Below, piece by piece: positions 14,716 through 27,291 of a stretch of DNA of 38,139 nt (position 1 is its first letter; every line of letters starts with the position of its first letter). The stretch is from Clostridia bacterium. GTDB taxonomy: Bacteria > Bacillota > Clostridia > Christensenellales > Aristaeellaceae. The notes under the pieces were generated by a model. It was not told the DNA's origin, did no database searches, and saw only the letters and a list, made by a program, of their open reading frames with translations. Where the stretch lies: contig JAGBFR010000057.1 of assembly GCA_017936375.1 (NCBI GenBank), forward strand, positions 1 to 38,139. The letters are read 5' to 3'. A program made the position numbers and the translations under genes.

Positions 14716-14983
14716 CCCTCTTCTCCCCCTTCAACTCGCTGATAAAGAGCATGATTTCCTCGAGCACCGAGGCATTCAGCTCGTAATAGATGAACTTGCC
14801 CTCCCGCTTGTCGCGGATGAGGTCGGCGTCCTTTAAGACCGACAGATGCCGCGAGACGGCCGCTGCCGTCACCGGGAAATGCTCCGTGATCTCCCCCGCG
14901 GACAGGCGCCCCGCCTTGAGCAGGCTCAGGATCTCGCGGCGGGTGGGATCCGCCAGCGCGCGCATGGTCTCCTGCAGAGCCAT
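14708..14983 (-). CDS. ArsR/SdpR-type transcriptional repressor
   Basis: Start chosen at 14983 (MALQETMRALADPTRREIL; AAAGGGG 8 bp upstream) rather than six codons earlier; 91 residues. The winged helix is typical: LADPTRREILSLL, recognition region FPVTAAAVSRHLSVLKDADL and wing KREGKFIYYELN. No metal-binding Cys pair is seen, which argues for the SdpR rather than the metal-sensing branch. First gene of the operon; it probably represses its own promoter through the palindrome at 15002-15024. Its stop overlaps the sdpI-like start by 8 bp. Confidence 0.9.
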   Translation of the reverse strand: MALQETMRALADPTRREILSLLKAGRLSAGEITEHFPVTAAAVSRHLSVLKDADLIRDKREGKFIYYELNASVLEEIMLFISELKGEKRDA

Positions 14984-15001
14984 ATGTGAATCCCCTTTCA
15001 T

Positions 15002-15024
15002 TTAACATTTAACTGATATGTTAA
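15002..15024. promoter_or_regulatory. Palindromic operator of the ArsR/SdpI/ABC operon
   Basis: TTAACAT and ATGTTAA form a perfect 7-bp inverted repeat 9 bp apart, lying just downstream of the -10 box, over the expected start of transcription and before the ribosome site. This is a good position for repression by the product of the first gene. Confidence 0.65.
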
Positions 15025-15028
15025 TTGT

Positions 15029-15057
15029 ATTATAGCAGGCAGACGAACATCTGTCAA
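15029..15057 (-). promoter_or_regulatory. Promoter of the ArsR/SdpI/ABC operon
   Basis: On the minus strand TTGACA (15057-15052), 17 bp, TATAAT (15034-15029): full consensus, consistent with a strong promoter held down by a repressor. Confidence 0.88.
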
Positions 15058-15090
15058 CCTACTTTCGCCTGCAAAAAGCAATGTCCGCTC

Positions 15091-15119
15091 TTCACACGGG
15101 GCGCGTGCCGGGCTATAAT
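15091..15119 (+). promoter_or_regulatory. Promoter of the alpha/beta hydrolase gene
   Basis: TTCACA (15091-15096), 17 bp, TATAAT (15114-15119), 40 bp before the start codon at 15160. Divergent from the ArsR-operon promoter, with the two -35 boxes about 34 bp apart. Confidence 0.75.
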
Positions 15120-15159
15120 GGATACAGACCCACTCAATCCTACAGCAGGAGGCAGCGCT

Positions 15160-15984
15160 ATGGAGCATAAGACATTCAACGCAGGCACGGGCGTCATCCA
15201 TTACGACATCAGCCGCCGCGGCGCGGACAGGCCGTGGCTCGTCTTTCTGCCGGGGCTGAGCGCCGACCACACGCTCTTTGACAAGCAAACGGCGTATTTC
15301 GCCGGGGAGGCCAATTGCCTGGTCTGGGATGCGCCGGCCCACGGTCGCTCTCGCCCCTTCCCGCTGACCTTCACCATGCGCGATCTGGCCGTGTATCTGC
15401 ACGGCATCCTTGAGGCGGAAGGCGTGTCCTCGCCCTTCCTCATCGGCCAGTCCCTTGGCGGCTACATTGCCCAGATCTATATAGCGCAGTACCCCGGCAG
15501 CGCTGCCGGCTTCATCTCCATCGACTCCTGCCCGCTGAGCCGGAAGTATTACACCCGCTGGGAGCTGGCGCTGCTCAAGCGGACAAAGGGGATGTACATG
15601 AGCATCCCGTGGAAGCTGCTGCTCGCATGGGGCATTGCGGGCACTTCGACCACAGCATACGGACGCGGACTCATGCGGCAGATGTGGACCTCCTACAGCA
15701 AGGAGGAATTCTGCAGCCTCGCCGACCATGGATACCGCATCCTTGCCGAAGCCGTCGAGGCGCAGCCGGAATACCCCATTGCCTGCCCCACGTTGCTGCT
15801 GTGCGGCGAGAAGGACGGCGCAGGATCGGCAAAGAGTTATAACCGCCGATGGACAAAGCAGGACGGTCATCCGCTGGTCTGGCTCAAAGGCGCAGGGCAC
15901 AACGCCAACACCGACGTACCCGACGAAGTCAACCGGCTGATCCAGAACTTCATTTGCCAAGCTTCAAAGGCCGCAGCACGCTGA
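15160..15984 (+). CDS. Alpha/beta-fold hydrolase
   Basis: Start at 15160 behind AGGAGG; the frame is open upstream but that part precedes the promoter. 274 residues, the usual size. Visible are the oxyanion region FLPGLSADHTLFDKQ, the nucleophile elbow GQSLGG, an acid in LCGEKDGAG and the catalytic His in KGAGHNAN. It lacks a signal peptide, so acts in the cytoplasm. The sequence does not separate esterase, peptidase and other activities. Divergent from the SdpI operon; it could share regulation with it, but its promoter lies outside the operator palindrome. Confidence 0.85.
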   Translation: MEHKTFNAGTGVIHYDISRRGADRPWLVFLPGLSADHTLFDKQTAYFAGEANCLVWDAPAHGRSRPFPLTFTMRDLAVYLHGILEAEGVSSPFLIGQSLGGYIAQIYIAQYPGSAAGFISIDSCPLSRKYYTRWELALLKRTKGMYMSIPWKLLLAWGIAGTSTTAYGRGLMRQMWTSYSKEEFCSLADHGYRILAEAVEAQPEYPIACPTLLLCGEKDGAGSAKSYNRRWTKQDGHPLVWLKGAGHNANTDVPDEVNRLIQNFICQASKAAAR

Positions 15985-15985
15985 G

Positions 15986-16040
15986 AACCTCATCCGTCAT
16001 TGCCTTCGGCAATGCCACCTTCCCCTCACAGGGGAAGGCT
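15986..16040. repeat. CTCATCCG/CTTCCCC intergenic repeat, short copy
   Basis: AACCTCATCCG, the hairpin CATTGCCTTCGGCAATG, then CACCTTCCCCTCACAGGGGAAGGCT. Starts 1 bp after the hydrolase stop codon. The hairpin-forming parts may also serve as a transcription end structure. Confidence 0.7.
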
Positions 16041-16150
16041 ATGGGGCAGCGGAACAGCAGACGCATCACAATCCCGTCGCTCATAGGCCTGCCTTGCACA
16101 ACAGACCTTCATATGATAAGATGAAGCCAGACCATCACGGGAGGGATACC

Positions 16151-16933
16151 ATGATCGACGGCCATATTCACATCGAGAGCGGCCCGTACACGCCGGAATG
16201 GATCGACCGGTTTGTGCAGCGCGCAGCTGAAACCCGGATGGACGAAATCTGGCTGCTGGAGCACTGCTACCGCTTTGCGGAGTTCGCGCCCATGTATGAA
16301 TCCGCGCGCGCGTACAGCGACTATAACCGCGCATGGTTTAATCGTCGGGCATGCACGGCAAGCCTTGAGGCCTACCTTTCGCTGATCCATCAGGTCAGGG
16401 AGAAGGCGTATCCCGTCCGCATCCGATTCGGCCTTGAGGTCTGCTACTTTAGGGGATATGAGTCCTTCGTCGCTCAGACCGCGAAGGGGCTGGGCCTTGA
16501 TTTCCTGCTGGGCAGCGTGCACTTTGTCGGCGGCTTTGCCTTCGACCACAGGCCCGAGCTCTGGGACGGCATGGACGTGGACAGCCTGTACCGCCAGTAC
16601 TTTGAGGACTCCATCGCCCTCGCGAAGAGCGGCGTCTTTGACGGGCTCGGTCATCCGGACACGATCAAGCTCTTCGGGCACAGGCCCTCCTTCCCCCTCA
16701 CCGGGTACTATGAGCGCCTCGCGCAGGCGCTGTCCGAGAGCAAGATGTACGCCGACCTGAACAGCGGCGCGGCGAGGCGTTATCCCGAGACCGCTTCGCT
16801 GGGCATGGAGGACGAGCTGCTGCGCATCCTGAAAGCGCATCATGTGCGGCTCATCACCTCCTCCGACGCGCACTGCCCCGAGGACGTCGGGCACAGAATC
16901 GCGGAGCTGACCCGCCTCGCAGAAAGCGAGTGA
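16151..16933 (+). CDS. PHP-domain phosphatase, histidinol-phosphatase-like
   Basis: Start at 16151 behind GGGAGGG; 260 residues. The PHP metal-site motifs appear in order: DGHIHIE (residues 3-9), LEHCYRF, FGLEVCYF, GSVHFV, GLGHPDTIKLFG and SSDAHCPEDVG. Members of this branch are trinuclear-metal phosphoesterases; HisK-type histidinol phosphatase is the best-known activity. No other his gene is near, so the physiological substrate is open. A weak promoter could be TTGCAC (16094) with TAAGAT (16117), 17-bp spacing. It converges on aspS with a shared terminator. Confidence 0.82.
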   Translation: MIDGHIHIESGPYTPEWIDRFVQRAAETRMDEIWLLEHCYRFAEFAPMYESARAYSDYNRAWFNRRACTASLEAYLSLIHQVREKAYPVRIRFGLEVCYFRGYESFVAQTAKGLGLDFLLGSVHFVGGFAFDHRPELWDGMDVDSLYRQYFEDSIALAKSGVFDGLGHPDTIKLFGHRPSFPLTGYYERLAQALSESKMYADLNSGAARRYPETASLGMEDELLRILKAHHVRLITSSDAHCPEDVGHRIAELTRLAESE

Positions 16934-16962
16934 GCGGGCCGCGCGATTGATAAGCAAAAGAA

Positions 16963-16999
16963 AAAGCCGGACTGCGCGAAACAGTCCGGCTTTTTTTAT
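16963..16999. terminator. Bidirectional terminator between the PHP gene and aspS
   Basis: The stem AAAGCCGGACT/AGTCCGGCTTT has T runs on both strands (TTTTTTTATA on plus, TTTTTCTTTT on minus), fitting the two converging genes. Confidence 0.88.
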
Positions 17000-17006
17000 A
17001 ACAGCA

Positions 17007-18317
17007 TTACGGGGTGAGGCGGGTCGGGCCGCGGAAGATGAACATGGCCTCCTTAATCGCCATGCCCAGCAGGAGCATGGTCAGGCGGTCGATGCCCAGG
17101 CCGAAGCCGCCGTGCGGCGGGCAGCCGTACTTGAAGAACTCGGTGTAGAACTTGACGTCCTCGTCAAGGCCCTTCTCCTTCGCCTGCGCGCAAAGCACGT
17201 CATAGCGATGCTCGCGCTGGGCACCGGTGGTGATCTCCACGCCGCGCCAGATCAGGTCATAGCCCTGCGGTATGCCCTGCTCGTCGCGCATGTGGTAGAA
17301 GGCGCGCTTCTCCGCGCTGAAGTCGGTGACGAAGAGGAACTCGTGGCCGAACTTCTTCTTGACCAGATCGTAGGACAGGTGCTCCGCCTCGGTGGTCAGG
17401 TCGCCCTTCTCCTCCTCCGGCACCTTGTAGCCAAACTCCTTCTCCAGCTCGTCATACAGCTCGGAGAGCTTCATGACCGGGAAGGGCAGGGTCGGCACCT
17501 CCAGCGGCGTGCCGAACATCTCCTCAAGCTCCTTGCCGTAGGCCTCCTTGACCTTGCCAAGGGCATAGGTCAGCAGCTCGGCCTCCAGCTGCATCACGTC
17601 GTGGAAGGACTCGATGAAGCTGAACTCCAGGTCGAAGCCGGAGAACTCGGTGGTGTGCTTGCTGGTGAAGCTCTTCTCCGCGCGGAAGACCGGGCCCACC
17701 TCGAAGATGCGCTCAAAGCCGGAGGCCATGGCCATCTGCTTATAGAACTGCGGGCTCTGCGCGAGATACGCGTTGCGGTCGAAGTACTTGACCTCGAAGA
17801 CGTCCGCGCCGGACTCGGAGGCCGCGCCGATCAGCTTCGGGGTGTGGATCTCCATGAAGTTCTTCTGGAGCAGATACTCGCGCATGGAGGCGACGAGCAG
17901 CGTCTGCACCTTGAAGAGCATCTGGTTCTTATCGGTGCGCAGGTCGACCCAGCGGTAGTCGATGCGCTGGTCGATGGAGGAGCGCTCGTGGCCCTTGCGC
18001 GCCTCGCGGTCGATCGGCAGCGGGGCCGCGATGGACTCGACGATAATCTGCTTGGGGTAGATCTCCACGCCGCCGAGCTTGACATACTCGCTCTCCACAG
18101 CCTTGCCGATGACGGTGATGACAGAGTCCGGGGTCAGGGAGTTAACCGCAGCGTCAAGCTCCGGATCCTCGTTCTTTTCCACGGTGATCTGCACCCTGCC
18201 GGTGATATCCTTGAGCACGATGAAGGCCATCTTGCTCTTATTGCGAATGGTATCCACGAAGCCGCAGACCTTGATCTGCTCCGCGCCGCGGACGTTGGCC
18301 GCATACGTTCTTTCCAT
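17007..18317 (-). CDS. aspS: Aspartate--tRNA ligase, archaeal/eukaryotic (probably non-discriminating) type
   Basis: Start chosen at 18317 (MERTYAANVRG, GGAGGG 7 bp upstream); 436 residues. An OB-fold anticodon domain (VCGFVDTIRNKSKMAFIVLK) leads to a class II core with motif 2 region FEVGPVFRAEKSFTSKHTTE and motif 3 GFGLGIDRLTMLLLGM, ending RGPTRLTP. The length and absence of the large bacterial GAD insertion place it in the archaeal/eukaryotic AspRS branch; bacterial AspRS is about 590 residues. In Bacteria this type often also charges tRNA-Asn with Asp, to be corrected by GatCAB, but discrimination cannot be settled from sequence alone. The gene has its own promoter. Confidence 0.9.
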   Translation of the reverse strand: MERTYAANVRGAEQIKVCGFVDTIRNKSKMAFIVLKDITGRVQITVEKNEDPELDAAVNSLTPDSVITVIGKAVESEYVKLGGVEIYPKQIIVESIAAPLPIDREARKGHERSSIDQRIDYRWVDLRTDKNQMLFKVQTLLVASMREYLLQKNFMEIHTPKLIGAASESGADVFEVKYFDRNAYLAQSPQFYKQMAMASGFERIFEVGPVFRAEKSFTSKHTTEFSGFDLEFSFIESFHDVMQLEAELLTYALGKVKEAYGKELEEMFGTPLEVPTLPFPVMKLSELYDELEKEFGYKVPEEEKGDLTTEAEHLSYDLVKKKFGHEFLFVTDFSAEKRAFYHMRDEQGIPQGYDLIWRGVEITTGAQREHRYDVLCAQAKEKGLDEDVKFYTEFFKYGCPPHGGFGLGIDRLTMLLLGMAIKEAMFIFRGPTRLTP

Positions 18318-18355
18318 ACTGATTCCCTCCATCAATAAAGGTTCATACAGAGTTT

Positions 18356-18383
18356 ATTATACCTGCATTTTCCGGCAAATCAA
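18356..18383 (-). promoter_or_regulatory. Promoter of aspS
   Basis: On the minus strand TTGATT (18383-18378), 16 bp, TATAAT (18361-18356), about 39 bp before the ATG. Confidence 0.75.
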
Positions 18384-18428
18384 GCCCCCCGCGCGGATTT
18401 TTCCGCAAAAGCGGCACTTTCTATGTGG

Positions 18429-18457
18429 TTGACTTTCCCTTTTTCGCATAGTATAAT
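18429..18457 (+). promoter_or_regulatory. Promoter of tRNA-Arg
   Basis: TTGACT (18429-18434), 17 bp, TATAAT (18452-18457), 14 bp before the mature tRNA 5' end. Confidence 0.85.
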
Positions 18458-18470
18458 AGCAGATGCGCAT

Positions 18471-18547
18471 GTACCCGTAGCTCAGTTGGATAGAGCGTCA
18501 GACTCCGACTCTGAAGGCCGGGGGTTCGAATCCCTTCGGGTACGCCA
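18471..18547 (+). tRNA. tRNA-Arg (CCG), integration target
   Basis: Acceptor GTACCCG/CGGGTAC, D stem GCTC/GAGC, anticodon stem TCAGA/TCTGA with loop CTCCGAC (anticodon CCG), T arm GGGGG-TTCGAAT-CCCTT, discriminator G and encoded CCA. The 45 bp from the anticodon loop to CCA recur exactly at 27247-27291, so the integrated element restored the full gene. Confidence 0.97.
18503..18547. repeat. attL core (45-bp direct repeat)
   Basis: Runs from the anticodon loop to CCA of tRNA-Arg and is identical to 27247-27291. Flanking bases differ on both sides (A/T before, T/A after), so 45 bp is the full identity block. Confidence 0.95.
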
Positions 18548-18550
18548 TAA

Positions 18551-18594
18551 GAAAAGCCTTGATTTTATTAGAAAATCTCGGCTTTTTCTTTTAT
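18551..18594 (+). terminator. Terminator after tRNA-Arg, element-borne
   Basis: AAAAGCC-TT-GATTTT pairs with AAAATC-TC-GGCTTTT, followed by T's. It lies inside the element and now ends tRNA-Arg transcription; the original host terminator was displaced to 27292. Confidence 0.85.
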
Positions 18595-18619
18595 GCTTTT
18601 ATTACTCTAATTTCGCATT

Positions 18620-18641
18620 TGGGTACTATTCTGGGTACTAT
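18620..18641. promoter_or_regulatory. Left integrase arm-type sites (two copies)
   Basis: TGGGTACTAT at 18620-18629 and 18632-18641, 12 bp apart, in the same orientation as the three copies at 27109-27142. Direct repeats near both ends of a tyrosine-integrase element are typical arm-binding sites. Confidence 0.75.
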
Positions 18642-18690
18642 ACGTTCCAAATTCTGCATACCGAAGCGGTAATAATTCCGCATAAAACGA

Positions 18691-18715
18691 GAAAAACCGC
18701 CCTGTTTGGGCGGCT
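18691..18715 (-). terminator. Terminator of the ArdC module
   Basis: On the minus strand AGCCGCCC-AAACA-GGGCGGTTTTTC. It ends the leftward unit that begins at about 20724. Confidence 0.8.
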
Positions 18716-18778
18716 CTTAATCGGTCAATTTCAGGTGTTCACAATCGTTATTTCAGTGGTAGTGACCTTGTTAGCCAG

Positions 18779-18976
18779 TCAGACGACATCGGTTCTACAA
18801 CTGCTGCGTACTCCTCCTTTCTGTTTGGGTTCTGGACGCTTATAGTCGGCGAGAAATAGCGGCAGTACCTGCATGATTTTTCTCTTATGCTTCATCCTCA
18901 TGATATCTTCCGCAAGCAATTCGATGTTTGTCACCTGCTTCAGCTGGGTGTGGCTATGCTTCTGCGCCTCAATCAT
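18779..18976 (-). CDS. Hypothetical small protein, last gene of ArdC module
   Basis: Start chosen at 18976 (MIEAQKHSHTQLKQ), where ATG overlaps the end of the upstream gene by 8 bp and GGGGAGGCG stands before it; 65 residues. Basic and partly helical (LAEDIMRMKHKRKIMQVLPL), with no membrane segment. I do not recognise it. The coupling argues that it is translated; composition alone is weak evidence. Confidence 0.5.
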   Translation of the reverse strand: MIEAQKHSHTQLKQVTNIELLAEDIMRMKHKRKIMQVLPLFLADYKRPEPKQKGGVRSSCRTDVV

Positions 18977-19115
18977 CCTGTTCGCCTCCCCTCTGCTCGT
19001 CGCCAGTGGTGTAGGCTGTTCTGAAGATTGGAGCGAGTACGTGCAGGCAAGCCATAACGACATGAGGATTGCTGCAGGAATTGATGAAGCAGTTGAATTT
19101 CTCGTTGTTGGTCAT
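18969..19115 (-). CDS. Hypothetical 48-residue protein
   Basis: MTNNEKFNCFINSC then a short hydrophobic run HVVMACLHVLAPIF and an acidic tail GDEQRGGEQDD. GGGAGG lies 10 bp before its ATG, which overlaps the stop of the preceding tiny gene (ATGA). Three Cys residues and one hydrophobic helix are visible; could be a small membrane-associated or binding protein. Family unknown. Confidence 0.55.
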   Translation of the reverse strand: MTNNEKFNCFINSCSNPHVVMACLHVLAPIFRTAYTTGDEQRGGEQDD

Positions 19116-19270
19116 GCGGTCGTCCTCCCTTCCTTCTGTTGCTGGGAGTAACGGTTGTTGAGAATTGCCCACACTTTGTGGATCGTCGTAGGGTCGTCGA
19201 CGACATTAAGCATCTGGGCAATAGCCTTCTTCTGTGCTGCGGAGACCTCCGCGAGGGTGACGTTGTTCAT
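19112..19270 (-). CDS. Hypothetical 52-residue protein downstream of ArdC
   Basis: MNNVTLAEVSAAQKKAIAQM, then LNVVDDPTTIHKVWAILNNR, ending in a charged tail. GGAGGAAG is 7-8 bp upstream; the stop shares ATGA with the next start. Predicted all-helical and soluble. It begins 62 bp after the ardC stop. Antirestriction operons often carry such tiny accessory proteins, but I do not recognise a family. Confidence 0.6.
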   Translation of the reverse strand: MNNVTLAEVSAAQKKAIAQMLNVVDDPTTIHKVWAILNNRYSQQQKEGRTTA

Positions 19271-19331
19271 AGAATCTTCCTCCTATCAGTTCAGGGAGGC
19301 CGCTCTTGGCGGCGCTCCCGGTGTGCTGGGG

Positions 19332-20168
19332 TTACTGGTTGAGGATCAGGTTGCAAGCCTTCTCGGCCTGTCCTGCGGCGCTGACGATCAGGCGGCGGTC
19401 ATCCTTCAGAGCCTTAAGCCAGCTCTGGATGTAGGCCGCGGAGTTGCGGAAGCTGCTGGAGGTTTCAAGGCCAGCGTGGTTGACCAGCGCAGCGGCGCCG
19501 ATCTCGGCCACAAGCTCCTCTTTGCTGTATTCTTCAGATCCGAAGCAAGCAACCTTGGTCAGGCGGTTGAGGCGGCTTGTGTGGCCAGTGCTGTGGGTCA
19601 GCTCATGGAAGGCCGTGCTGTAGTACTCGGCCAGCTCCTTGAACTGCTCCAGAAGCGGAAGCGTTACAGTGTCGGTGCTCGGCCTGTAGAAAGCCCGGTC
19701 ACCTTCCTGATGGATCAGCTTGACGCCGGATCTGTTCAGATAGTCGGTGATGATCGCGCCGGCCGCCTCGTCAGGCTGGAGGCTCTGCGCGGCTGCGGTA
19801 GTGTCGTGCTGGGGCTTGAGGCCTTCGCAATCGTCGATGTGGAACACATTGAAGTACTTCAGGAACGGGATCTTCTTGACTTCGCTGGGGTTCTCTTCGT
19901 CTTCCTTCTCAATCCACTTCCAGAATACAACCATCTGAGCCTTCGCGCCTTTGCGGATATTGCCGCCTTCCTTCTGGATCTGGGAGAACGTTGCGTACTC
20001 GCCGGGTCTGCCCAGTATCATCTGGTTCAGAAGGCTGTACGGCTTCCCGGTGCTACGGCTGATCGCACAGGCCTTGCCGCTGATGATCCACGGCTTATGC
20101 CACGGGATGACGCCTTGCTCAAGCTGGGCGAAGATCCTGTCTGTGACTTCCTGATAAACGTCCTTCAT
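19332..20168 (-). CDS. ArdC-like antirestriction protein
   Basis: 278 residues, start at 20168 behind GGAGG. The N-terminal half (about residues 1-125) matches the ArdC N-terminal ssDNA-binding domain: VYQEVTDRIFAQLEQGVIPW, ISRSTGKPYSLLNQMIL, GEYATFSQIQKEGG, KGAKAQMVVFWKW. The C-terminal half is a zincin-like metallopeptidase with HELTHSTGH (His188, Glu189, His192) and a downstream EELVAEIGAAAL glutamate. ArdC proteins ride on plasmids and ICEs, bind single-stranded DNA and shield entering DNA from restriction enzymes; relatives also occur on phages. It is the main gene of the leftward module driven from 20730-20758. Confidence 0.92.
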   Translation of the reverse strand: MKDVYQEVTDRIFAQLEQGVIPWHKPWIISGKACAISRSTGKPYSLLNQMILGRPGEYATFSQIQKEGGNIRKGAKAQMVVFWKWIEKEDEENPSEVKKIPFLKYFNVFHIDDCEGLKPQHDTTAAAQSLQPDEAAGAIITDYLNRSGVKLIHQEGDRAFYRPSTDTVTLPLLEQFKELAEYYSTAFHELTHSTGHTSRLNRLTKVACFGSEEYSKEELVAEIGAAALVNHAGLETSSSFRNSAAYIQSWLKALKDDRRLIVSAAGQAEKACNLILNQ

Positions 20169-20217
20169 TGGTGTTCCTCCTCTTGTAGAGGGCTGCCCCT
20201 TGTGCTATACTTGAGGC

Positions 20218-20281
20218 AGCCTCTCCGGGTCTTGGCGGGTCTGGGTGGCGGTTGAGACGCTCTGCAAAGCGTCTCTTTTTT
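20218..20281 (+). ncRNA. Candidate small antisense RNA in the ardC leader
   Basis: TTGTAG (20183-20188), 17 bp, TATACT (20206-20211) could start a transcript near 20218. It would stop at the hairpin GAGACGC-TCTGCAAA-GCGTCTC with six T's (20254-20281). The T run is only on the plus strand, where no protein gene ends. The RNA, about 64 nt, would be antisense to the transcript just upstream of ardC. Confidence 0.4.
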
Positions 20282-20603
20282 ATGCGGCGTTGCGGGCAGC
20301 GTACTTACACAGGCCGCAGGTCTTACCGTCCATCGTCGCGACACCGTTTGCATCGCAGGACAGGAGCAGCGCAGCGCGGAGCGTGTCGTGCTTGTGCTGG
20401 TCATGGATGCTGGCGAGGCCGGAGCGAATGAGCTTCATCAGGTAGGCGCTGATGCTGGCTCGGTTGTCTTCCATGCGGAAGGTATAGAGCTTGCCGCCCT
20501 TGGCCTCTGCCCATGCGATCTTGAGCGCCGTGCAGAGCGTGTGCCCCTTCTCGCGTCGGATCTGCCAGGCGTGGCGCATGATCTGCTGGAGGTTGTACTT
20601 CAT
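20280..20603 (-). CDS. Hypothetical 107-residue protein, first gene of ArdC module
   Basis: Start chosen at ATG 20603 with AAAGGAG upstream (an in-frame GTG precedes it by one codon). The N-terminus QQIMRHAWQIRREKGHTLCT followed by ALKIAWAEAK is a pattern I have seen in small proteins of clostridial phages and conjugative elements. The C-terminus has CKYA and a CGLC-type Cys pair that could hold a metal. No function known. It is first after the promoter overlapped by TTGCGCAA palindromes. Confidence 0.7.
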   Translation of the reverse strand: MKYNLQQIMRHAWQIRREKGHTLCTALKIAWAEAKGGKLYTFRMEDNRASISAYLMKLIRSGLASIHDQHKHDTLRAALLLSCDANGVATMDGKTCGLCKYAARNAA

Positions 20604-20729
20604 CACGTGTTCTCCTTTCTATTAGCTCAGAGAATCGCGCCCCAGCTCGTGCCCTTGCCCCTATGCGGCGATGTGCGCGGCTGGCGTCTCACTCATAGCA
20701 CCGGGGCGCTTCTCTCTTGATCTGAACAT

Positions 20730-20758
20730 AGTATAGACTATTTGCGCAAATATATCAA
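20730..20758 (-). promoter_or_regulatory. Promoter of the leftward ArdC module
   Basis: On the minus strand TTGATA (20758-20753), 17 bp, TATACT (20735-20730). The spacer is almost filled by the 14-bp palindrome TATTTGCGCAAATA (20739-20752), so a bound repressor would exclude RNA polymerase. Confidence 0.8.
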
Positions 20759-20815
20759 CGGTGAGAATGCACAATATTTACGCAAATATATTGCGCAACA
20801 TGTATATTTGCGCAA
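20739..20815. promoter_or_regulatory. Operator array of TTGCGCAA palindromes
   Basis: Four copies between the divergent genes: TATTTGCGCAAATA (20739-20752), TATTTACGCAAATA (20775-20788, one change), TTGCGCAA at 20791-20798 and TTGCGCAA at 20808-20815. The first lies in the leftward promoter spacer; the last supplies the -35 box of the rightward promoter. Likely bound by the ribbon-helix-helix protein encoded next to it. Confidence 0.75.
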
Positions 20816-20836
20816 GTAGATGTATTCCGCTATAAT
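20808..20836 (+). promoter_or_regulatory. Promoter of the ribbon-helix-helix gene
   Basis: TTGCGC (20808-20813), 17 bp, TATAAT (20831-20836). The -35 box is half of an operator palindrome, suggesting autoregulation. Confidence 0.75.
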
Positions 20837-20860
20837 AGAAGAAGAAAGGAGCGCGAGTAA

Positions 20861-21088
20861 ATGGTAGTATCTAAAGCACAGCAGAAGGCCGTTAATAGCT
20901 ACATCTCCCGTAACTATGATAGAATCAATCTGACTGTTCCCAAAGGACAGAAGGCAGCTATAGACGCTCACGCAAAGGGCAAGGGACTTTCTACCAATGC
21001 CCTTCTGAATGAGCTTCTGCGCGCAGATATGGGTGTATCAGAGGAAAATTGGAAGGTCAAGAGTTCCAGCGGTACGGACGAAGAGTAA
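20861..21088 (+). CDS. Ribbon-helix-helix (Arc/MetJ-type) regulator
   Basis: 75 residues, start at 20861 behind GAAAGGAG. The core YDRINLTVPKGQKAAIDAHA, KGLSTNALLNELLRADMG has the strand (INLTVPKG) and two helices of Arc/CopG-type proteins, which bind palindromic DNA as dimers or tetramers. It is preceded by the TTGCGCAA array and diverges from the ArdC module, so it is probably the repressor of both. No toxin partner follows: a terminator starts 14 bp after the stop. Confidence 0.8.
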   Translation: MVVSKAQQKAVNSYISRNYDRINLTVPKGQKAAIDAHAKGKGLSTNALLNELLRADMGVSEENWKVKSSSGTDEE

Positions 21089-21101
21089 CCACAACCAATA
21101 A

Positions 21102-21132
21102 AGAAGGGGCAGTGCAACAGCTGTCCCTTTTC
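21102..21132 (+). terminator. Terminator of the ribbon-helix-helix gene
   Basis: AAGGGGCAG pairs with CTGTCCCTTTT (with a G-T pair), followed by a short T run. Spaced 14 bp from the stop codon. Confidence 0.7.
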
Positions 21133-21420
21133 ATATGCACTTGCAGAGGATCGACTGCAGCCGGATGCCGAAGTTTCAATGCGCATCATATGCACATACT
21201 CCACCATTGTTAGCATGTCCAACAATGTGCATCCTTAATCAGAAGATACTCTTTCTTTTTTCTATTCTATTCTCTTGATGTACCTGGCAGAAAATCAAAA
21301 ATCCGCAGAGGAACGGCACGCCATTACCCGGAATTGACCACCGGACGAGAGCGCTAAACCCCCACGCCTATATACTTCGACGCGCGAGACTGAGCATATC
21401 CCCCCGGGGTGGTGAGGAAA
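21133..21420. other. Non-coding stretch within the element
   Basis: No convincing gene on either strand. It holds TTGTTAGCATGTCCAACAA (21207-21225), a short imperfect inverted repeat, a pyrimidine-rich run near 21250-21280, and CCCCCCGGGG at 21401-21410. No promoter is clear. It lies between the converging ends of two regulatory units of the element and may hold an origin or packaging-type site, but nothing proves that. Confidence 0.4.
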
Positions 21421-21588
21421 ATGAAAACCGTAGAAAAAGCCAAAGCAGAATTACAAGCTATGTATCTGAATTTGAGACGGTATATGCTAAGAAAAGCATT
21501 CTTGCTTTGTGTGCATCATTTGGGCGGCAAGCAAAAGAATATCCAGGCAAAACCAAGCTATTCACGTTGCAATTTTTGCAGCGCATAA
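21421..21588 (+). CDS. Doubtful small ORF, 55 residues
   Basis: MKTVEKAKAELQAMYLNLRR then YMLRKAFLLCVHHLGGKQ, with GGTGAGG before the ATG and the GC-rich CCCCCCGGGG just upstream. Basic and helical; no family recognised and no promoter seen. It is the only plausible gene in this 600-bp gap. Confidence 0.3.
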   Translation: MKTVEKAKAELQAMYLNLRRYMLRKAFLLCVHHLGGKQKNIQAKPSYSRCNFCSA

Positions 21589-21683
21589 CCCCCCCTGGAC
21601 ACATGCATGCAGGTACTTGTTTGGCAGGTATCCGCTGCACACATCGACGCGGGAGAGAGCTCAATCCCCTCCCCCTTGCATAA

Positions 21684-21715
21684 AGAGAAGGCCGATCAAT
21701 CCGTCGGCCTTCTCT
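21684..21715 (-). terminator. Hairpin ending the replication operon
   Basis: Perfect 12-bp stem AGAGAAGGCCGA/TCGGCCTTCTCT around 8 nt, abutting the stop codon of the sigma-like gene. Only a weak T tract (TTTATG) follows on the minus strand. Confidence 0.65.
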
Positions 21716-22419
21716 CATTGATGATTCAGTTTTTCCTGCTTCTGCTTCAGCAAAATGCACTCCTGCACAGACATTCTCATGCGCTTATAGCTGCTCAGTC
21801 CACTCTGATACAGGTTCTTTTGCCATTGAAAATCCGCCGCATATATCCCCAGCAGAATATCATCTGCACGAAGCAAGGCCAATGCCCTACTCAGTAGAAA
21901 ATGAATTCGCTGCTGACTGATTCCTTCCCTCGCTGCAATAACCCCAATCTGTTCGTGATGCAAATGATAGGCGATAACAAGTCGTCTTTCCCGCTCCGGC
22001 AGAGCCTCAACAGCTGCCCGGACATCCCGAACAAGATCAGCCTCCAGCAGTCCATCATCACTGGGCGCCAGATTCTCATCCACAATCAATTCTGAATACG
22101 GCGTTTCACCATCCGCAGCCAGAGCATCAAGAGAAAACTGCGCTTCCACATTCCGCTTGCTAGTCCTTATACCCAGCAGCCTCCTGCATTCATTCCGCAC
22201 ACACCAGTCAATCAGCCTACCAAGCGGACACTTTTCATCGTACCGCATGACAGCAATGTGAAAACCCAGATATGCGCATTGCTGGAAGTCCTCCCGATCT
22301 GCATAAGCGCGGGGAGAGTACCGCGCTGCCGCTTTTAGCGCGCACGCCTTGTACTTTCTCCACAGCCGCAGAATCGCTTCCTGATCGCCCTGACGCGCCT
22401 GTTGAAGACAATCCCTCAT
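21715..22419 (-). CDS. Sigma-70-like RNA polymerase sigma factor of the element
   Basis: Start at ATG 22419 (TGATG overlap with the upstream stop); 234 residues. Residues about 8-90 match sigma region 2: GDQEAILRLWRKYKACALKA, YADREDFQQCAYLGFHIAVM, CPLGRLIDWCVRNECRR. A region 4-like helix-turn-helix follows: ALPERERRLVIAYHLHHE, then IGVIAAREGISQQRIHFLLSRAL. The C-terminal 45 residues are basic and unassigned. Such proteins in phages and ICEs are often late-gene activators. Here it is the last gene of the replication operon, and no late operon is obvious, so its target promoters may be elsewhere, possibly on a helper phage. Confidence 0.8.
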   Translation of the reverse strand: MRDCLQQARQGDQEAILRLWRKYKACALKAAARYSPRAYADREDFQQCAYLGFHIAVMRYDEKCPLGRLIDWCVRNECRRLLGIRTSKRNVEAQFSLDALAADGETPYSELIVDENLAPSDDGLLEADLVRDVRAAVEALPERERRLVIAYHLHHEQIGVIAAREGISQQRIHFLLSRALALLRADDILLGIYAADFQWQKNLYQSGLSSYKRMRMSVQECILLKQKQEKLNHQ

Positions 22420-22658
22420 CAATGCTCAACCATCTCTGAGCAGGGCAATTCACCGCTCAGAGCCACCTCTGCCGCCGTCAACTCGCACACCCGGCGATAA
22501 GCATCAATCCGACGGATTAACTCGTCCCGGCAGATCGGAAGCAGCTCAAGCCCATCGATGCAGGCAAGCAGCGCATTCTCGGCTGCGTGAATCGTGATGC
22601 CCTCTGCAGCACTGCCAAGCGGCGCAAGCGTATCAGAGAAGTCTAAATTATTCGTCAT
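22419..22658 (-). CDS. Hypothetical 79-residue protein
   Basis: GGAGGAAGG immediately precedes the ATG at 22658. The sequence is acidic and helical (ENALLACIDGLELLPICRDE, LIRRIDAYRRVCELTAAEVA). It ends in TGATG shared with the sigma-like start. No family recognised; conserved operon position suggests a replication or regulation accessory. Confidence 0.65.
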   Translation of the reverse strand: MTNNLDFSDTLAPLGSAAEGITIHAAENALLACIDGLELLPICRDELIRRIDAYRRVCELTAAEVALSGELPCSEMVEH

Positions 22659-22667
22659 CCTTCCTCC

Positions 22668-22865
22668 TCAAACCCCCAGCGCATCATCCAACGCACGCAT
22701 ATAAGCCTCAAATTCCTTCCACTCGCCCCGCATGTGCGTCAGCTTCCGCTCGCCTGCCTGCTTGAAACGCGTGCGCAGCGCATAAACATTGCCGTCCCTG
22801 CCCAACTGCTCCCGCTCTGCCTTCGCCTGCCGGAGAAGCTCCTTGAAAGTCTCGTCCAGATTCAT
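22668..22865 (-). CDS. Hypothetical 65-residue protein
   Basis: Start chosen at 22865, 8 bp from a GGGGGG ribosome site; an ATG two codons upstream is too close to it. Highly charged and helical: LDETFKELLRQAKAEREQLG, FKQAGERKLTHMRGEWKEFE. Possibly a coiled coil. Lies between the DnaB-like and 79-residue genes with 9-13 bp gaps. Function unknown. Confidence 0.6.
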   Translation of the reverse strand: MNLDETFKELLRQAKAEREQLGRDGNVYALRTRFKQAGERKLTHMRGEWKEFEAYMRALDDALGV

Positions 22866-22878
22866 CCGCATTTCCCCC

Positions 22879-24129
22879 CTACGACACCTGTCGATAGCGC
22901 ATCAACGCACCGTCAAATCTCAAATCCAGTCGACACATGCGTCCCTGCCGATGCTTCGCGACATAGAGCGAAACAAACCGCTCGCCGTTCGGATTTTCTT
23001 TCAACGGACTGTGAAGCATCAACACGACGTCAGCATCCTGCTCAATAGAGCCGCTCTCTCGCAGTTCCGACAAATGGGGCGGTCGATCCTCGCCCTGAGC
23101 AGAGGCGCGGTTGACCTGTGCCGCAGCGATCACCGGACAGCCCAACTCCAGGGCCAGCAATTTCAGCGCACGGCTGATCTCGCCGACGGCCTCCACGCGC
23201 CCGCTCGTCTTCTGATCCGGATAGAGCAGCTGGAGATAGTCCACGCAGACCAGATCCAGACCGCCGGCCGCCTTCATCTGCAGCGCCAGGCGACGGATGG
23301 CCGCAGGTGTTCGCGCTACCGTACTGATGCGCAGATTCTCCCCCAGAATAGCGGGTACGCGCTCTGTGATGCAGAGATAGTCGCCGTCGGACAGCGTACG
23401 GTGCTCAATCTTCCCCGTGCTAACGCCGGTGATCTGCGCCGTCATGCGCCCGATGACCTCCCGCTCAGACATCTCCAACGAAATGTAAAGCACGCGCCGA
23501 CCAGCCTTGAGCGCATTAACGGCGCAAAAGGACAGCAGTGCCGATTTGCCGACGGCAGGCCTTGCACCGATGACGACCAGTTTCCCGCCGCGCAGGCCGC
23601 CGCCGAATTGCTCATCAAGCTTGGGCAGTCCAAGCGGGACAGGAGTTTCCTGCGCCTCGCCATCCAGATGCAAAAGCAACTCGACCATCGCATCCGTTCC
23701 GCTGATAGAATCGCTGGAGGCTGTTCTTCTGCTAATCTGATCCAACTGCGTACGTGCCTGGCTGATGATCTCCTCCAGCGGCGCATCCCGTGCCTTCGCA
23801 GCTTGCGCAGCGTGCAGAAAAACTGCCTCAACCTGCCGACGCTGAGCAGCATCACGGATATGTGCGCCGTACTGCGCCGCAAGAGCGCCACTGCCGGCAG
23901 CTTCTGCGGAGAGCTCAATCAGCGCCTCCGTATCATCCGGCAGCGCATCACAAGCCGTCACAAGGTCGACAATCTCGCTGCGCATCTCAATCCTGACGCA
24001 AGCTGCAAAGATACGGCGGCAAACGACATCGGTAAAATCGTCTGCCAGCAAGTCATGATCGCTCGCCCGCGCCTCACCCCTGATGACTGCACCAAGGAAT
24101 GCACGCTCAGATCCTGTCGAAGTGCGCAT
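22879..24129 (-). CDS. DnaB-like replicative helicase of the element
   Basis: Start chosen at 24129 (MRTSTGSERAFLGAVIRGEA, AGGTGA upstream); 416 residues. The N-terminal part is a shortened DnaB N-domain (AFLGAVIRGEARASDHDLLA). The RecA-like domain carries Walker A GARPAVGKSALL, the strand/helix YISLEMSEREVIGRM, Walker B LDLVCVDYLQLL, then VIAAAQVNRASAQ and ELRESGSIEQDADVVLML, all DnaB hallmarks. It should unwind the element's DNA at an origin set by the organizer encoded just upstream, with which it overlaps by 23 bp. A DnaB-type helicase with an organizer is a phage-style replication module. Confidence 0.9.
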   Translation of the reverse strand: MRTSTGSERAFLGAVIRGEARASDHDLLADDFTDVVCRRIFAACVRIEMRSEIVDLVTACDALPDDTEALIELSAEAAGSGALAAQYGAHIRDAAQRRQVEAVFLHAAQAAKARDAPLEEIISQARTQLDQISRRTASSDSISGTDAMVELLLHLDGEAQETPVPLGLPKLDEQFGGGLRGGKLVVIGARPAVGKSALLSFCAVNALKAGRRVLYISLEMSEREVIGRMTAQITGVSTGKIEHRTLSDGDYLCITERVPAILGENLRISTVARTPAAIRRLALQMKAAGGLDLVCVDYLQLLYPDQKTSGRVEAVGEISRALKLLALELGCPVIAAAQVNRASAQGEDRPPHLSELRESGSIEQDADVVLMLHSPLKENPNGERFVSLYVAKHRQGRMCRLDLRFDGALMRYRQVS

Positions 24130-24763
24130 AAGGATCACCTGCCCGTCTCGAAATAGTCGGCGTGTTCCGCTCCCACGTTCTGACGCAGGCACGCCAGTCC
24201 TTGATCTTCGTCTTTCCGCGCATCCAGCCCGCAGCCTCGTAGTGGTCAAGGAACTGCTGCGCATCAATGCCATTACCCCGCTCGGTGCAGTAGGCAGCAA
24301 CCTCGTCCAGCGTAGGCGGAACAAAGCGCTTTTTAGCCGGAGCGGGAGCGACAGAAATTAAGCTCCCCTCCTCTAGGCTTCCCTGGGGATACGGAGTGTC
24401 GACGCATTGTATACAGGGTGTATCCAAATCGTACATCAGCGCAGCATTCAGACTGAGCTGCGCCTTCTCCGCGAAACACTTCGTCGAGTGAAAGCGATCC
24501 TTCGGGATGTAGTTGTGCTGCCGCCAGTGCCTAAGAACAACGACTCCCGACTCAAAAGGAATAAGGAATCCTTTAGCACAGAGCAAAGACAAATCGTCGC
24601 GGCTTGAACCGACGAGACGAACAACGGAGTTCGCGTTCAGCAGGAATCCCTCATCATCTGCCTGAAGTCCCAGGAAAAAGTAAAGCCTCTGCGCTGTGGC
24701 AGGAAGATCCAAGAACAGATCGGTCTCACAGACCTCGCGGCTAAACATGCGACGAACGGCCAT
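24107..24763 (-). CDS. Replisome organizer / DnaD-like replication initiator
   Basis: Start at ATG 24763 in a TGATG overlap; 218 residues. The N-terminus MAVRRMFSREVCETDLFLDL, PATAQRLYFFLGLQADDEGF is the winged-helix start of phage replisome organizers. A linker follows, then PPTLDEVAAYCTERGNGIDA, QFLDHYEAAGWMRGKTKIKD and WRACVRTWERN, the DnaD-like C-terminal signature. Such proteins bind the origin and load a helicase, consistent with the DnaB-like gene next door. No origin iterons were recognised inside the gene. Confidence 0.85.
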   Translation of the reverse strand: MAVRRMFSREVCETDLFLDLPATAQRLYFFLGLQADDEGFLLNANSVVRLVGSSRDDLSLLCAKGFLIPFESGVVVLRHWRQHNYIPKDRFHSTKCFAEKAQLSLNAALMYDLDTPCIQCVDTPYPQGSLEEGSLISVAPAPAKKRFVPPTLDEVAAYCTERGNGIDAQQFLDHYEAAGWMRGKTKIKDWRACVRTWERNTPTISRRAGDPYAHFDRI

Positions 24764-24969
24764 CAATTACAGCCCTCCGTCCCGCAACGTTCGGCGCACA
24801 TCTGCTGCCGCAGCGCCTGCTGGAGGACATCCAGATCCCAGCGCAGACAACGGCGCCGATCCCCGCGCCCGACCTCCAGCGCAGGGTAGCGCCCCTGCTT
24901 AAAGCCGGAACGCAGTTCAAACTCAGACAGGCCGGTGGCCTGTGCAGCAGCCTTTGTAGTGACGAACAT
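24763..24969 (-). CDS. Excisionase-like small HTH protein
   Basis: Start at ATG 24969 (TGATG overlap; GGGGGG upstream); 68 residues. VTTKAAAQATGLSEFELRSG, FKQGRYPALEVGRG, RRRCLRWDLDVLQQAL follows the MerR-like winged helix of Xis/AlpA proteins, in which the helix picks the site and the WDLDVL segment closes the domain. It probably directs excision or early transcription. Two Cys residues lie in the C-terminal tail. Confidence 0.7.
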   Translation of the reverse strand: MFVTTKAAAQATGLSEFELRSGFKQGRYPALEVGRGDRRRCLRWDLDVLQQALRQQMCAERCGTEGCN

Positions 24970-25157
24970 CAACAACCCCCCTTGCGCTCGTTAGCAATCT
25001 CATCGATGATGGTTAGCAAACGCTTGCACTCCTCGTCAGGCAGCTCCCGGCGTAGCATGCGCGACAGCTGAGAATCATGAATTCCAAGCCGATCAGCGAC
25101 CTGCCAGAGGAATACAGCGTGCTCACGCGCAGCATCGCGAACAGTTTGATTGGCCAC
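24969..25157 (-). CDS. Small helix-turn-helix protein, first of the replication operon
   Basis: GTG start at 25157 behind GGGAG; 62 residues. VFLWQVADRLGIHDSQLSRM, LRRELPDEECKRLLTIIDEI resembles a compact XRE-type HTH common at the head of early operons in clostridial prophages. A Cro-like or antirepressor role is likely but not shown. Confidence 0.7.
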   Translation of the reverse strand: MANQTVRDAAREHAVFLWQVADRLGIHDSQLSRMLRRELPDEECKRLLTIIDEIANERKGGC

Positions 25158-25178
25158 TAAATCACTCCCTTCGCAGCA

Positions 25179-25207
25179 ATTATAGCACGTTCTGCATCAC
25201 GCGTCAA
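25179..25207 (-). promoter_or_regulatory. Early promoter of the replication operon
   Basis: On the minus strand TTGACG (25207-25202), 17 bp, TATAAT (25184-25179). It drives the seven genes to 21715. The -35 box is overlapped by CAACTGTTGCAAC (25205-25217), which shares GTTG/CAAC half-sites with the repressor promoter region. Confidence 0.8.
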
Positions 25208-25260
25208 CTGTTGCAACGATATCATCGCATCAGAAGAAAATCACATTGTTGTAAATGTTG

Positions 25261-25289
25261 TTGACAACACAGCACGTCAATGGTATAAT
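25261..25289 (+). promoter_or_regulatory. Promoter of the repressor/integrase unit
   Basis: TTGACA (25261-25266), 17 bp, TATAAT (25284-25289). The -35 box is embedded in GTTGTTGACAAC, a GTTG-N4-CAAC inverted repeat, a probable operator for the adjacent CI-like repressor. Confidence 0.85.
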
Positions 25290-25319
25290 CAATTCAACCG
25301 AAAGGAGGATTTTTCAACC

Positions 25320-25880
25320 ATGAAACTGCCTGACAAACTGTATCAGCTTCGAAAGCAGCGCGGATTGACCCTCAAGGAATTATCTGAAGCTGTCGGAATC
25401 ACCGCAGCCGCATTATCCAGCTATGAAAAAGGACAAAAAGAACCTTCACTGTCTTTCGCAAAAAGGCTTGCAGAGTATTTCGGTGTTTCTCTGGATTATT
25501 TGTGCGGGTTAGATGACTCCGATACCAATACTCGGAAGAATAAACAAATTTCCCGCGCAGATATTATCGAGCGCTTTACAGATCTATGTGAAACCGGGCT
25601 ACCAATCAGAATCGAAAGAAAATCGCTTAACAAAAACCAGTTAGCTTTCCGTTATCCACCAATCACAGATTACAATGGAGAAGCCTCAACTGTTTGCGTG
25701 AACCTCGCAAGCTTATGGCTTTTAGTATTTGCAGAAAAATACAATCGCCTATTACAGTTATATATTGAACAGGAAATTGACCTCGAAGTACTAGAAGCCT
25801 TTAAGGAAAAGTACATGAGAATATATGCTAATGACTATAATCTAACGGATGATGATCCACTTCCTTGGGAGGATGTATGA
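25320..25880 (+). CDS. CI-like XRE repressor of the element
   Basis: 186 residues, start behind AAAGGAGG. Residues 5-60 are an XRE helix-turn-helix: LYQLRKQRGLTLKELSEAVG, ITAAALSSYEKGQKEPSLSF, then FGVSLDYLCGLDD. The C-terminal part is not the peptidase (LexA-type) domain: no Ser-Lys pair is apparent, so induction by self-cleavage is unlikely. Codon use is much more AT-rich than the host genes. It faces the replication operon and is coupled to the integrase (ATGA overlap), the usual genetic switch of temperate elements. Confidence 0.88.
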   Translation: MKLPDKLYQLRKQRGLTLKELSEAVGITAAALSSYEKGQKEPSLSFAKRLAEYFGVSLDYLCGLDDSDTNTRKNKQISRADIIERFTDLCETGLPIRIERKSLNKNQLAFRYPPITDYNGEASTVCVNLASLWLLVFAEKYNRLLQLYIEQEIDLEVLEAFKEKYMRIYANDYNLTDDDPLPWEDV

Positions 25881-27070
25881 ATCTCGAAAACCGTGGCAAC
25901 GGCTCATGGCGTGTTCAGATCTCCGACGGATACAACCCAGACGGTACAAAGCGTCTATTCCGCAGAACGATCAAGGTTGATCCCAACAAGACAGAGACAG
26001 CACAGCGACGCGAAGCTGCCAAGCAAGCAGCCCTCATTGAGGCAGATTACCGTCGAAAGCTCCTGCTGATGGGAAGCAAGACGACAATCGCTCAGCTTGC
26101 GCAAGAGTATCTGCTTGACCGTGTGGAGCGTAAAGGCCTCAAGGAAAGCACAGTCAAACAATACCGCGATATCATCCTTGGAAGGATTGTCCCGGAGCTG
26201 GGCAAGAAGTATGTGCAGGATCTGACAGCGCGTGATATCAATGCCTTCTATCGAAAGCTGAAGGACGCGCCGGCACTTACCAAGCGCAGCAAAACAGGCA
26301 AGCTCAGCGGAACGACGCGCCGCCAGTATCACACACAGCTGCACGCCATGCTTTCATACGCCGTCAAGACCGGGTACATCGCCGTTAATCCTGCAGACCA
26401 GGTTGAACCTCCTCAGAAGGATACCGGCGAAACACAATGGTATGAGCTTGATCAGGCGGGCCAGCTCCTGCGCGCGCTGGATACGCTGGAAGAAACACAA
26501 TGGCAGCTATTCTTCAATATGGCCATCTATACCGGCATGCGTCCCGGCGAATTGGTTGCGTTGAATTGGTCTGATATCAAGGGCAATGTTCTATATGTCA
26601 AAGCCAGTGCAGTATTCGTCAAGGGTCAAGGTACGAAACGGCAGGAAAGCCCGAAAACAGAAAAGGGCTGGAGGAAAATCATTCTACCCGGTCATATTGT
26701 CGATCTGCTGGCGATCCATCGAAAGGAACAATTGACTTACCGTCTCCCCTTTGGCAAGAACTGGTCCGAGCCAGATGCGGTATTCACAACCGACGACGGG
26801 CGACGCACAAACATCAGTACTCCTACACATATCTTCCAGAAGATCCTGCGCAAGCATAACCTTCCTCCCCTCACGCTGTACGGCCTGCGGCACACCTCCG
26901 CAACCACAATGATTGCACAAGGTGTCTCTGTCCGAGATGTTGCCGAACGGTTAGGTCATGCACAGACCAGCACCACAATGAACATCTACGCACACGCATT
27001 GAAAGACGCAAGTGAAAAGGCCACAGAAGCAGTTGCATCTGCCCTTGATGCTGCAAAGCGTAGCGTATAA
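25877..27070 (+). CDS. int: Tyrosine site-specific integrase
   Basis: Start at 25877 behind GGGAGG, overlapping the repressor stop (ATGA); 397 residues. An N-terminal arm-binding domain (GSWRVQISDGYNPDGTKRLF) and a SAM-like core-binding domain (LAQEYLLDRVERKGLKESTV) precede the catalytic domain with Arg222 (GMRPGEL), Arg338 (LYGLRHT), His361 (RLGHAQ) and the nucleophile Tyr371 (NIYAHAL). Tyr335 stands where most members have the first His of HxxR. It should join the element's attP to the 3' half of tRNA-Arg(CCG). The gene ends about 180 bp from attR, beside the arm sites. Confidence 0.95.
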   Translation: MNLENRGNGSWRVQISDGYNPDGTKRLFRRTIKVDPNKTETAQRREAAKQAALIEADYRRKLLLMGSKTTIAQLAQEYLLDRVERKGLKESTVKQYRDIILGRIVPELGKKYVQDLTARDINAFYRKLKDAPALTKRSKTGKLSGTTRRQYHTQLHAMLSYAVKTGYIAVNPADQVEPPQKDTGETQWYELDQAGQLLRALDTLEETQWQLFFNMAIYTGMRPGELVALNWSDIKGNVLYVKASAVFVKGQGTKRQESPKTEKGWRKIILPGHIVDLLAIHRKEQLTYRLPFGKNWSEPDAVFTTDDGRRTNISTPTHIFQKILRKHNLPPLTLYGLRHTSATTMIAQGVSVRDVAERLGHAQTSTTMNIYAHALKDASEKATEAVASALDAAKRSV

Positions 27071-27097
27071 AAAAGCCGCCCTTCTCGGGCGGTTTTC
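27068..27097 (+). terminator. Terminator of the integrase gene
   Basis: AAAGCCGCCC-TTCT-CGGGCGGTTTT, at the stop codon. Its stem resembles the hairpin at 18691-18715. Confidence 0.85.
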
Positions 27098-27108
27098 TCG
27101 TGCCTTCC

Positions 27109-27142
27109 TGGGTACTGGTCTGGGTACTATTCTGGGTACTAT
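27109..27142. promoter_or_regulatory. Right integrase arm-type sites (three copies)
   Basis: TGGGTACT at 27109, then TGGGTACTAT at 27121 and 27133, exactly 12 bp apart, all in the same orientation as the left pair at 18620-18641. Such an array is expected for binding the N-terminal domain of the integrase. Confidence 0.75.
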
Positions 27143-27246
27143 TCACACAGGCCTGCACGTGATTGCACAGCGATACACGGCAATAATCCTTTATATTGTT
27201 TAATTTCTTTTATCAGCAAATCAATACACAAATCAGTTCATTGTAT

Positions 27247-27291
27247 CTCCGACTCTGAAGGCCGGGGGTTCGAATCCCTTCGGGTACGCCA
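27247..27291. repeat. attR core (tRNA-Arg 3' fragment)
   Basis: Identical to 18503-18547 over 45 bp, with no promoter or 5' half, so it is not a second tRNA gene. Marks the right end of the element. Confidence 0.95.

Follow-up and report, generated by a model that had tools for sequence, protein, structure and literature searches.

The 38,139-nucleotide contig JAGBFR010000057.1 of an uncultured Clostridia bacterium (assembly GCA_017936375.1, family Aristaeellaceae; hereafter the window) carries an 8,744 bp element in a tRNA-Arg(CCG) gene (Table 1). We interpret this element, with good confidence, as a compact phage satellite that would work like a phage-inducible chromosomal island (PICI) and be packaged via a helper-type site. 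The new observation is a non-coding segment of ~147 bp that is common to satellite-type loci and to prophage regions upstream of terS in the same bacterial family, and which we regard as a candidate packaging (pac or cos) site. Genomes, contigs and loci are referred to by their G, C and L numbers.

Four satellite-type loci (the window element, L053, L054 and L183) contain the segment, as do prophages G071:C59 and G211:C150, where it is found directly upstream of terS. The sister genome G071 holds both a satellite and a segment-bearing prophage, which have ~108 bp in common at 70% identity; in the prophage the segment lies just upstream of terS (phrog_2538, E = 1.4e-7), which is followed by terL and then by a portal gene (phrog_156). 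When compared with 29 genomes of the genus, the G071:C59 stretch matched itself, the G211 prophage and the G071 satellite (E = 1.1e-6); its four remaining matches span only 22–26 bp. In the window and L053 the segment follows the sigma gene. Its 17 bp core does not occur in 308 genomes of the family beyond the four source places, a result that shows rarity only, because the core was derived from those places. In IMG/VR the core is found in 12 contigs, of which L183 alone has extended similarity: it is a satellite-type locus with the segment in the same place and with DnaB (51% identity), sigma-like (46% over 148 residues) and ArdC (83%) relatives. The other 11 contigs have no extended similarity and may contain the core by chance. 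Near the segment, L054 has additional partial copies (E = 1.5e-4 and 0.037); a weak one is seen in the window (E = 0.064). A further copy was seen at 1383–1514 of L060 (G208:C103), a 15 kb contig that encodes a serine integrase, a primase-helicase and a g108 relative (69%; for g108 see Table 1) and that is not known to be a satellite.

A sequence-only model was built from seven copies (window, L053, L054, L158, L170, L183 and L060) and run on the 308 genomes with stricter filters. The two best matches outside the training set, in G135:C69 and G025:C3 (E = 1.6e-4 each), are located about 105 and 130 bp upstream of prophage terS–terL, respectively, and the score of each exceeded those of 1,000 out of 1,000 dinucleotide shuffles; the third-ranked match is an extra copy in the G071 satellite (E = 8e-4). 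Lower matches for which gene lists were read (L224, L225, L226, L227, L229 and L230) all fall in ordinary genes, and three others compared by protein only (L228, L233 and L234) gave no match. A local scan of 262 loci also recovered G135 (E = 0.0023). The strand of the segment separates the two classes, being that of the preceding gene in four of four satellites and antisense to terS in four of four prophages.

The TerL lineage of prophage G071:C59 is present in 13 of the 29 genus genomes. Our prophage survey comprised 15 loci (14 from the genus and G025; one TerL of 43% identity in G197 was left out), with no callable terS in G212. The segment was found in four of the 14 prophages with a callable terS, two of these four being training members, and is missing from the other ten, so that it belongs to a subset of these prophages. 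The terS starts in G096 and G032 have probably been called too early; scans of the whole loci gave no segment match. The TerS proteins of the ten segment-less prophages form one cluster (49–95% mutual identity), and those of the four segment-bearing prophages are diverse (26–33%, except for one 98% pair); the idea that the segment marks a single TerS clade was dropped for this reason. When the terS-upstream regions of nine other prophages were modelled, the only match was a weak one in L070 (E = 0.022), at a position outside the element. The TerS of L158 has one weak relative among viral contigs, and its best match among solved structures (E = 0.014) is to sigma factors.

Besides the ten segment-less prophages, several results weigh against a helper-packaged satellite. 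The local scan gave only a weak G025 match (E = 0.076). The metagenome-assembled genome that contains the window (80.9% complete) gave no match to PF03354, portal or the G071-lineage TerL, and no helper was seen in it; its two weak phrog_2 matches are of a kind also present in 11 of 14 control genomes. ArdC, which the element encodes, is far commoner in public plasmid records (3,071, the best among the matches listed being 49% identical) than in phages (57 records, best among the matches listed 42.5%). Finally, the element could be a satellite in which the segment is regulatory, acting as a terS promoter, operator or leader, which would affect the packaging step only. Its position in the prophages, where the distance from its end to the terS start codon is 19 to about 130 bp, within the likely 5' region, would suit such a role. 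However, the copies in the window and L053 are situated between convergent genes, where the terS-like direction drives nothing except backwards into sigma; the orientation is reversed relative to the phage; and L070, L111 and L124, which carry terS-like genes, have no segment match better than E = 4. We consider a regulatory role rather unlikely. The absence of the segment from elements with terS-like genes is as expected if an own TerS and a helper-type site are alternatives; the segment occurs without terS in the window element, L053 and L054, and neither is seen in L113, L115 and L127.

The 45 bp duplication of tRNA-Arg sequence noticed in the original prediction is an exact repeat with a left-to-right spacing equal to the element size, and short TGGGTACT-type repeats inside both ends resemble integrase arm sites. 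Among the 29 genus genomes, L054 (G071:C37) is a 10,019 bp relative in the same tRNA-Arg beside aspS in a sister species, with an integrase of 74% identity and no match to ArdC or sigma. L053 (G210:C115) is an 8,668 bp element in tRNA-Ser(GCT) of a sister species, bounded by a 24 bp repeat; its gene order is the same as that of the window element (DnaD, DnaB, g67, g79, sigma, RHH, g108 and ArdC), and its integrase is only 27% identical. The variation in occupancy expected of a mobile element is also seen, the tRNA-Arg site being occupied in some related genomes and free in others. In G210, G212 and G187 aspS stands next to the tRNA, with no integrase match in the fetched stretches (5.5–10 kb), and G177 has, past the tRNA, sequence that matches the right flank of the window element, as expected for an empty site; for G096 and G216 only 260 bp past tRNA-Arg were read. 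The occupants seen at tRNA-Arg(CCG) are satellite-like (the window element, L054, L070 and, in part, L055). In comparison with L053, dN is lower than dS in seven of seven genes, ranging from 0.02/0.30 (g108) to 0.42/0.72 (g67), with several dS values near saturation. On the basis of its relatives L053 and L054 and of dN below dS, the window element is a maintained mobile unit.

These data also bear on whether the element is a decayed prophage, i.e. the early half of a phage that has lost its terminase and structural genes and has no life of its own. Prophage G135:C69 holds DnaD-like, DnaB, activator-like and ArdC genes, the segment, terS and terL in one run, so that the satellite resembles its early part; the segment, ArdC (75% identity) and DnaB (39%) are common to this prophage and the window element. 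The prophage differs in having terS and terL and in carrying the segment antisense to terS, as opposed to the preceding-gene strand of the satellites. Three results argue against decay, which we judge improbable: the compact gene set recurs in a different tRNA, where it has a different integrase and att repeats of its own; dN is below dS in all seven genes; and the strand of the segment is reversed (four of four satellites versus four of four prophages). Since the orientations are opposite, the segment is not simply a retained upstream end of terS.

A Pfam scan of the 68 six-frame open reading frames (ORFs) of at least 45 residues in the element matched 21 families (E ≤ 0.01). Relaxase, terminase, portal, capsid, tail and lysis families are all absent from these, as had been predicted for the first four, and no longer orthologue carrying a relaxase or capsid gene was found. 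A PHROGs scan of the same ORFs covered the first 25 of 46 families and is therefore weaker evidence of absence. By these scans, the element has neither the relaxase that would define an integrative and mobilizable element (IME) nor the terminase, portal and capsid of a prophage. The original prediction had offered a satellite and an IME as alternatives, ArdC being what pointed to conjugation. In an IME the excised circle would be transferred from an oriT that escaped recognition, with a conjugative element as helper, and ArdC would protect the strand that enters. Elements that have no relaxase and borrow all functions can exist, and ArdC is frequent on conjugative plasmids (of the 3,071 records, 1,703 are typed as conjugative and 543 as mobilizable). 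ArdC is reported to aid conjugation of R388 (PMC7213743). On the other side, no relaxase family is present among the 68 ORFs, the replication genes are of phage type and a terS-type segment has no role in an IME. The closest ArdC homologues in the genus are those of satellite L053 (91%) and of prophage G135:C69 (locus L056, 75%), where ArdC lies near the segment and terS, so that the closest ArdC found outside satellites belongs to a prophage. Further copies in the genus (L064, L067–L069, L071 and L072; 55–72%) have different surroundings, and several of them lie no more than a few kilobases from an integrase. We favour a satellite because the same gene set occurs with another integrase and att, because relatives carry terS-like genes in contigs that gave no TerL or portal match, and because the segment matches the terS-upstream region of prophages, one of which has the closest non-satellite ArdC found; an IME is very improbable. 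As a separate observation, the genome of the window contains a second ArdC gene (71% identity; G000:C53:80585–81384, L064 10576–11391) near ORFs that by eye are resolvase- or transposase-like.

The satellite belongs to a wider set of att-bounded elements. Att repeats were sought in 13 loci besides the window and obtained for eight (L053, L054, L070, L111, L113, L115, L124 and L127) but not for five (L055, L057, L058, L059 and L119), some of which are cut by contig ends. The six elements other than L053 and L054 measure 5,973–13,553 bp and occupy tRNA-Arg, tRNA-Leu (three), tRNA-Ser and tRNA-Val. A scan of ten selected proteins against each library (Pfam and PHROGs) identified a clear TerS in L111 (PF03592, E = 1.1e-23), a TerS above the Pfam cutoff in L070 (PF16677, E = 2.8e-7) and a weak TerS in L124 (phrog_2538, E = 5.8e-5). 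None of the nine contigs bearing the window element and its eight att-bounded relatives was matched in whole-genome searches for TerL (PF03354 and phrog_2) and portal (PF04860). Among the matches listed, relatives of the RHH, sigma-like and g108 proteins recur across elements, with RHH homologues in L053, L054, L070, L111 and L113; the identity of g108 is 96% in L053, 63% in L054 and 52% in L070.

PICIs are described as carrying a TerS homologue or the pac/cos sequence of the helper (PMC6092414), SaPIbov5 being a PICI with a helper cos or pac site (PMC5052747, PMC6092414); the elements described here split in the same two ways. Like Gram-positive PICIs and SaPIbov5, the window element is att-bounded, lacks structural and lytic genes and has int and a repressor facing a divergent regulatory and replication operon; of the features listed in PMC6092414, it has the integrase, replication module, master regulator and divergent regulators, int being on the same side as the repressor. 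With 8,744 bp (relatives 5,973–13,553 bp) it is smaller than the PICI size of about 12–15 kb given there, and in place of the primase-rep/ori organisation it has a DnaD-like loader and DnaB. As to TerS or pac/cos, no TerS was found by Pfam in the 68 ORFs, and the terS-upstream segment is present as a candidate for this role. The element further differs from PICIs of about 15 kb in carrying ArdC and a sigma-like gene, in its uncultured Clostridia host and in having no recognised interference gene of a known kind. The predicted match to the PICI core thus holds for the arrangement of int and repressor facing a replication operon and fails for the size and the primase-rep module; because of these last two the element is not filed as a PICI but only as working like one. 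Its 8.7 kb fall within the 7–20 kb stated for satellites in PMC13376191. Like the PICMI satellites of Vibrionaceae, for which no cos or pac site could be identified (PMC10803314), the element is small and lacks terS and capsid-remodelling genes; the host groups differ. The DnaD-like initiator is up to 47% identical to proteins of Streptococcus phage replication modules (e.g. phage Javan18), which belong to full phages. The literature covered, from which most subscription journals are absent and for which one query was very broad, yielded no account of satellites from this group of bacteria.

For such a satellite the following course may be envisaged. A helper phage would relieve CI-like repression, the integrase would excise the circle and the DnaD-like protein would load DnaB for replication of the element DNA. 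The helper terminase would recognise the terS-type segment, as pac or cos, and pack satellite DNA into helper particles, and ArdC would protect this DNA against restriction as it enters a new cell. More tentatively, and with less than even confidence, the segment could be a portable, reversed terS-type packaging cassette in an undescribed family of Clostridia satellites, aimed at a subset of the prophage lineage and shared by different backbones, namely the tyrosine-integrase DnaD/DnaB elements and L060, with sister elements carrying their own TerS; the adjacent sigma-like or activator gene may link the satellite to the late phase of the helper, and ArdC may provide anti-restriction for particle-borne DNA. 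Satellites have been studied best in cultured cocci, enterobacteria and vibrios. For the uncultured Clostridia described here, the segment upstream of terS allows a satellite family to be paired with a probable helper lineage on sequence evidence only. If this pairing is true, the matching of helpers to satellites can be tested in metagenomes, and ArdC, which is commonly taken to indicate conjugation, is carried by an element whose expected route into the cell is a phage particle.

Table 1. Features of the element and its insertion site in the window.
Feature	Position	Strand	Evidence or remarks
tRNA-Arg(CCG), integration target	18471..18547	+	last 45 bp (18503-18547) = left att copy
Two TGGGTACT-type repeats, left end	18620..18643 (copies start 18620, 18632)	+	presumed integrase arm sites
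ArdC-like anti-restriction protein	19332..20168	-	PF08401 (ArdcN) 1.5e-26, PF18818 (MPTase-PolyVal) 2.3e-39; phrog_7245
g108, no assigned function; conserved in related elements	20280..20606	-	phrog_28198 1.1e-4
RHH / Arc-like DNA-binding protein	20861..21088	+	phrog_13890 1.6e-17, phrog_582 3e-4
terS-upstream-type shared segment, ~147 bp, non-coding	21269..21415	-	core 21326-21342; candidate pac/cos site
Sigma-70-like protein	21715..22422	-	sigma-70 region 4 PF08281 1.1e-6; phrog_351 1.7e-18
g79, 79-residue protein, no assigned function	22419..22658	-	77% in L053
g67, 67-residue protein, no assigned function	22668..22871	-	56% in L053
DnaB-like replicative helicase	22879..24324	-	DnaB_C PF03796 1.2e-59; phrog_19 1e-81
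DnaD-like helicase loader / initiator	24107..24766	-	phrog_8489 3.1e-50
Small gene opposite repressor	24763..24975	-	71% in L054; homologues in related elements
Small putative HTH gene opposite repressor	24969..25157	-	phrog_17740 7.8e-13
CI-like repressor	25320..25880	+	HTH_3 PF01381 1.1e-18
Tyrosine integrase	25865..27070	+	PF00589 2.1e-24
Three TGGGTACT-type repeats, right end	27109..27142 (copies start 27109, 27121, 27133)	+	presumed integrase arm sites
Right att copy	27247..27291	+	exact 45-bp repeat

The integrase is intact, and family matches bear out the predicted integrase, CI-like repressor, replisome organizer, DnaB-like helicase, sigma-like gene and ArdC. Two helix–turn–helix (HTH) genes had been proposed opposite the repressor, of which one is retained as a putative HTH gene, with sub-threshold HTH matches in Pfam; the other, the adjacent small gene, has no family match in Pfam or PHROGs. 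The true start of DnaB probably lies inside its called ORF. The sigma protein gave one stretch in a viral scan, which was unconfirmed, and no match in the phage collection; a DnaB scan of genome contigs gave 129 stretches, none of them confirmed; and a search of viral contigs with a g108 alignment gave one partial relative only. An Rfam scan of six sources identified tRNAs and one skipping-rope RNA (in L070), and nothing else.

Several further features were noted in the related loci. The RHH gene of the window has no toxin-like partner. By eye, RHH genes adjoin toxin-like genes in L054 (12340–12990, RelE/HigB-like; toxin family phrog_3445, E = 2e-4), L070 (7974–8810, MazF-like) and L113 (6862–7766, MazF-like), which suggests addiction modules in these three elements. 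The right end of L053 (13218–13561) and L157 (G071:C68, 11762–12104) share 352 bp at 73% identity, the last stretch being nearly identical; the L157 copy is situated 1.4 kb past a TerL gene, and no Rfam match explains the likeness. L127 (G149:C2:41000–60900) is an att-bounded element of 13.2 kb whose contig gave neither a TerL nor a portal match. It encodes a prohead protease (4286–5071; PF04586, E = 6.1e-29) and may remodel a helper capsid. In L070 (G032:C4) a second integrase unit of 4.2 kb (14703–18960) lies in tandem past the satellite at the same tRNA-Arg and shares its att sequence.

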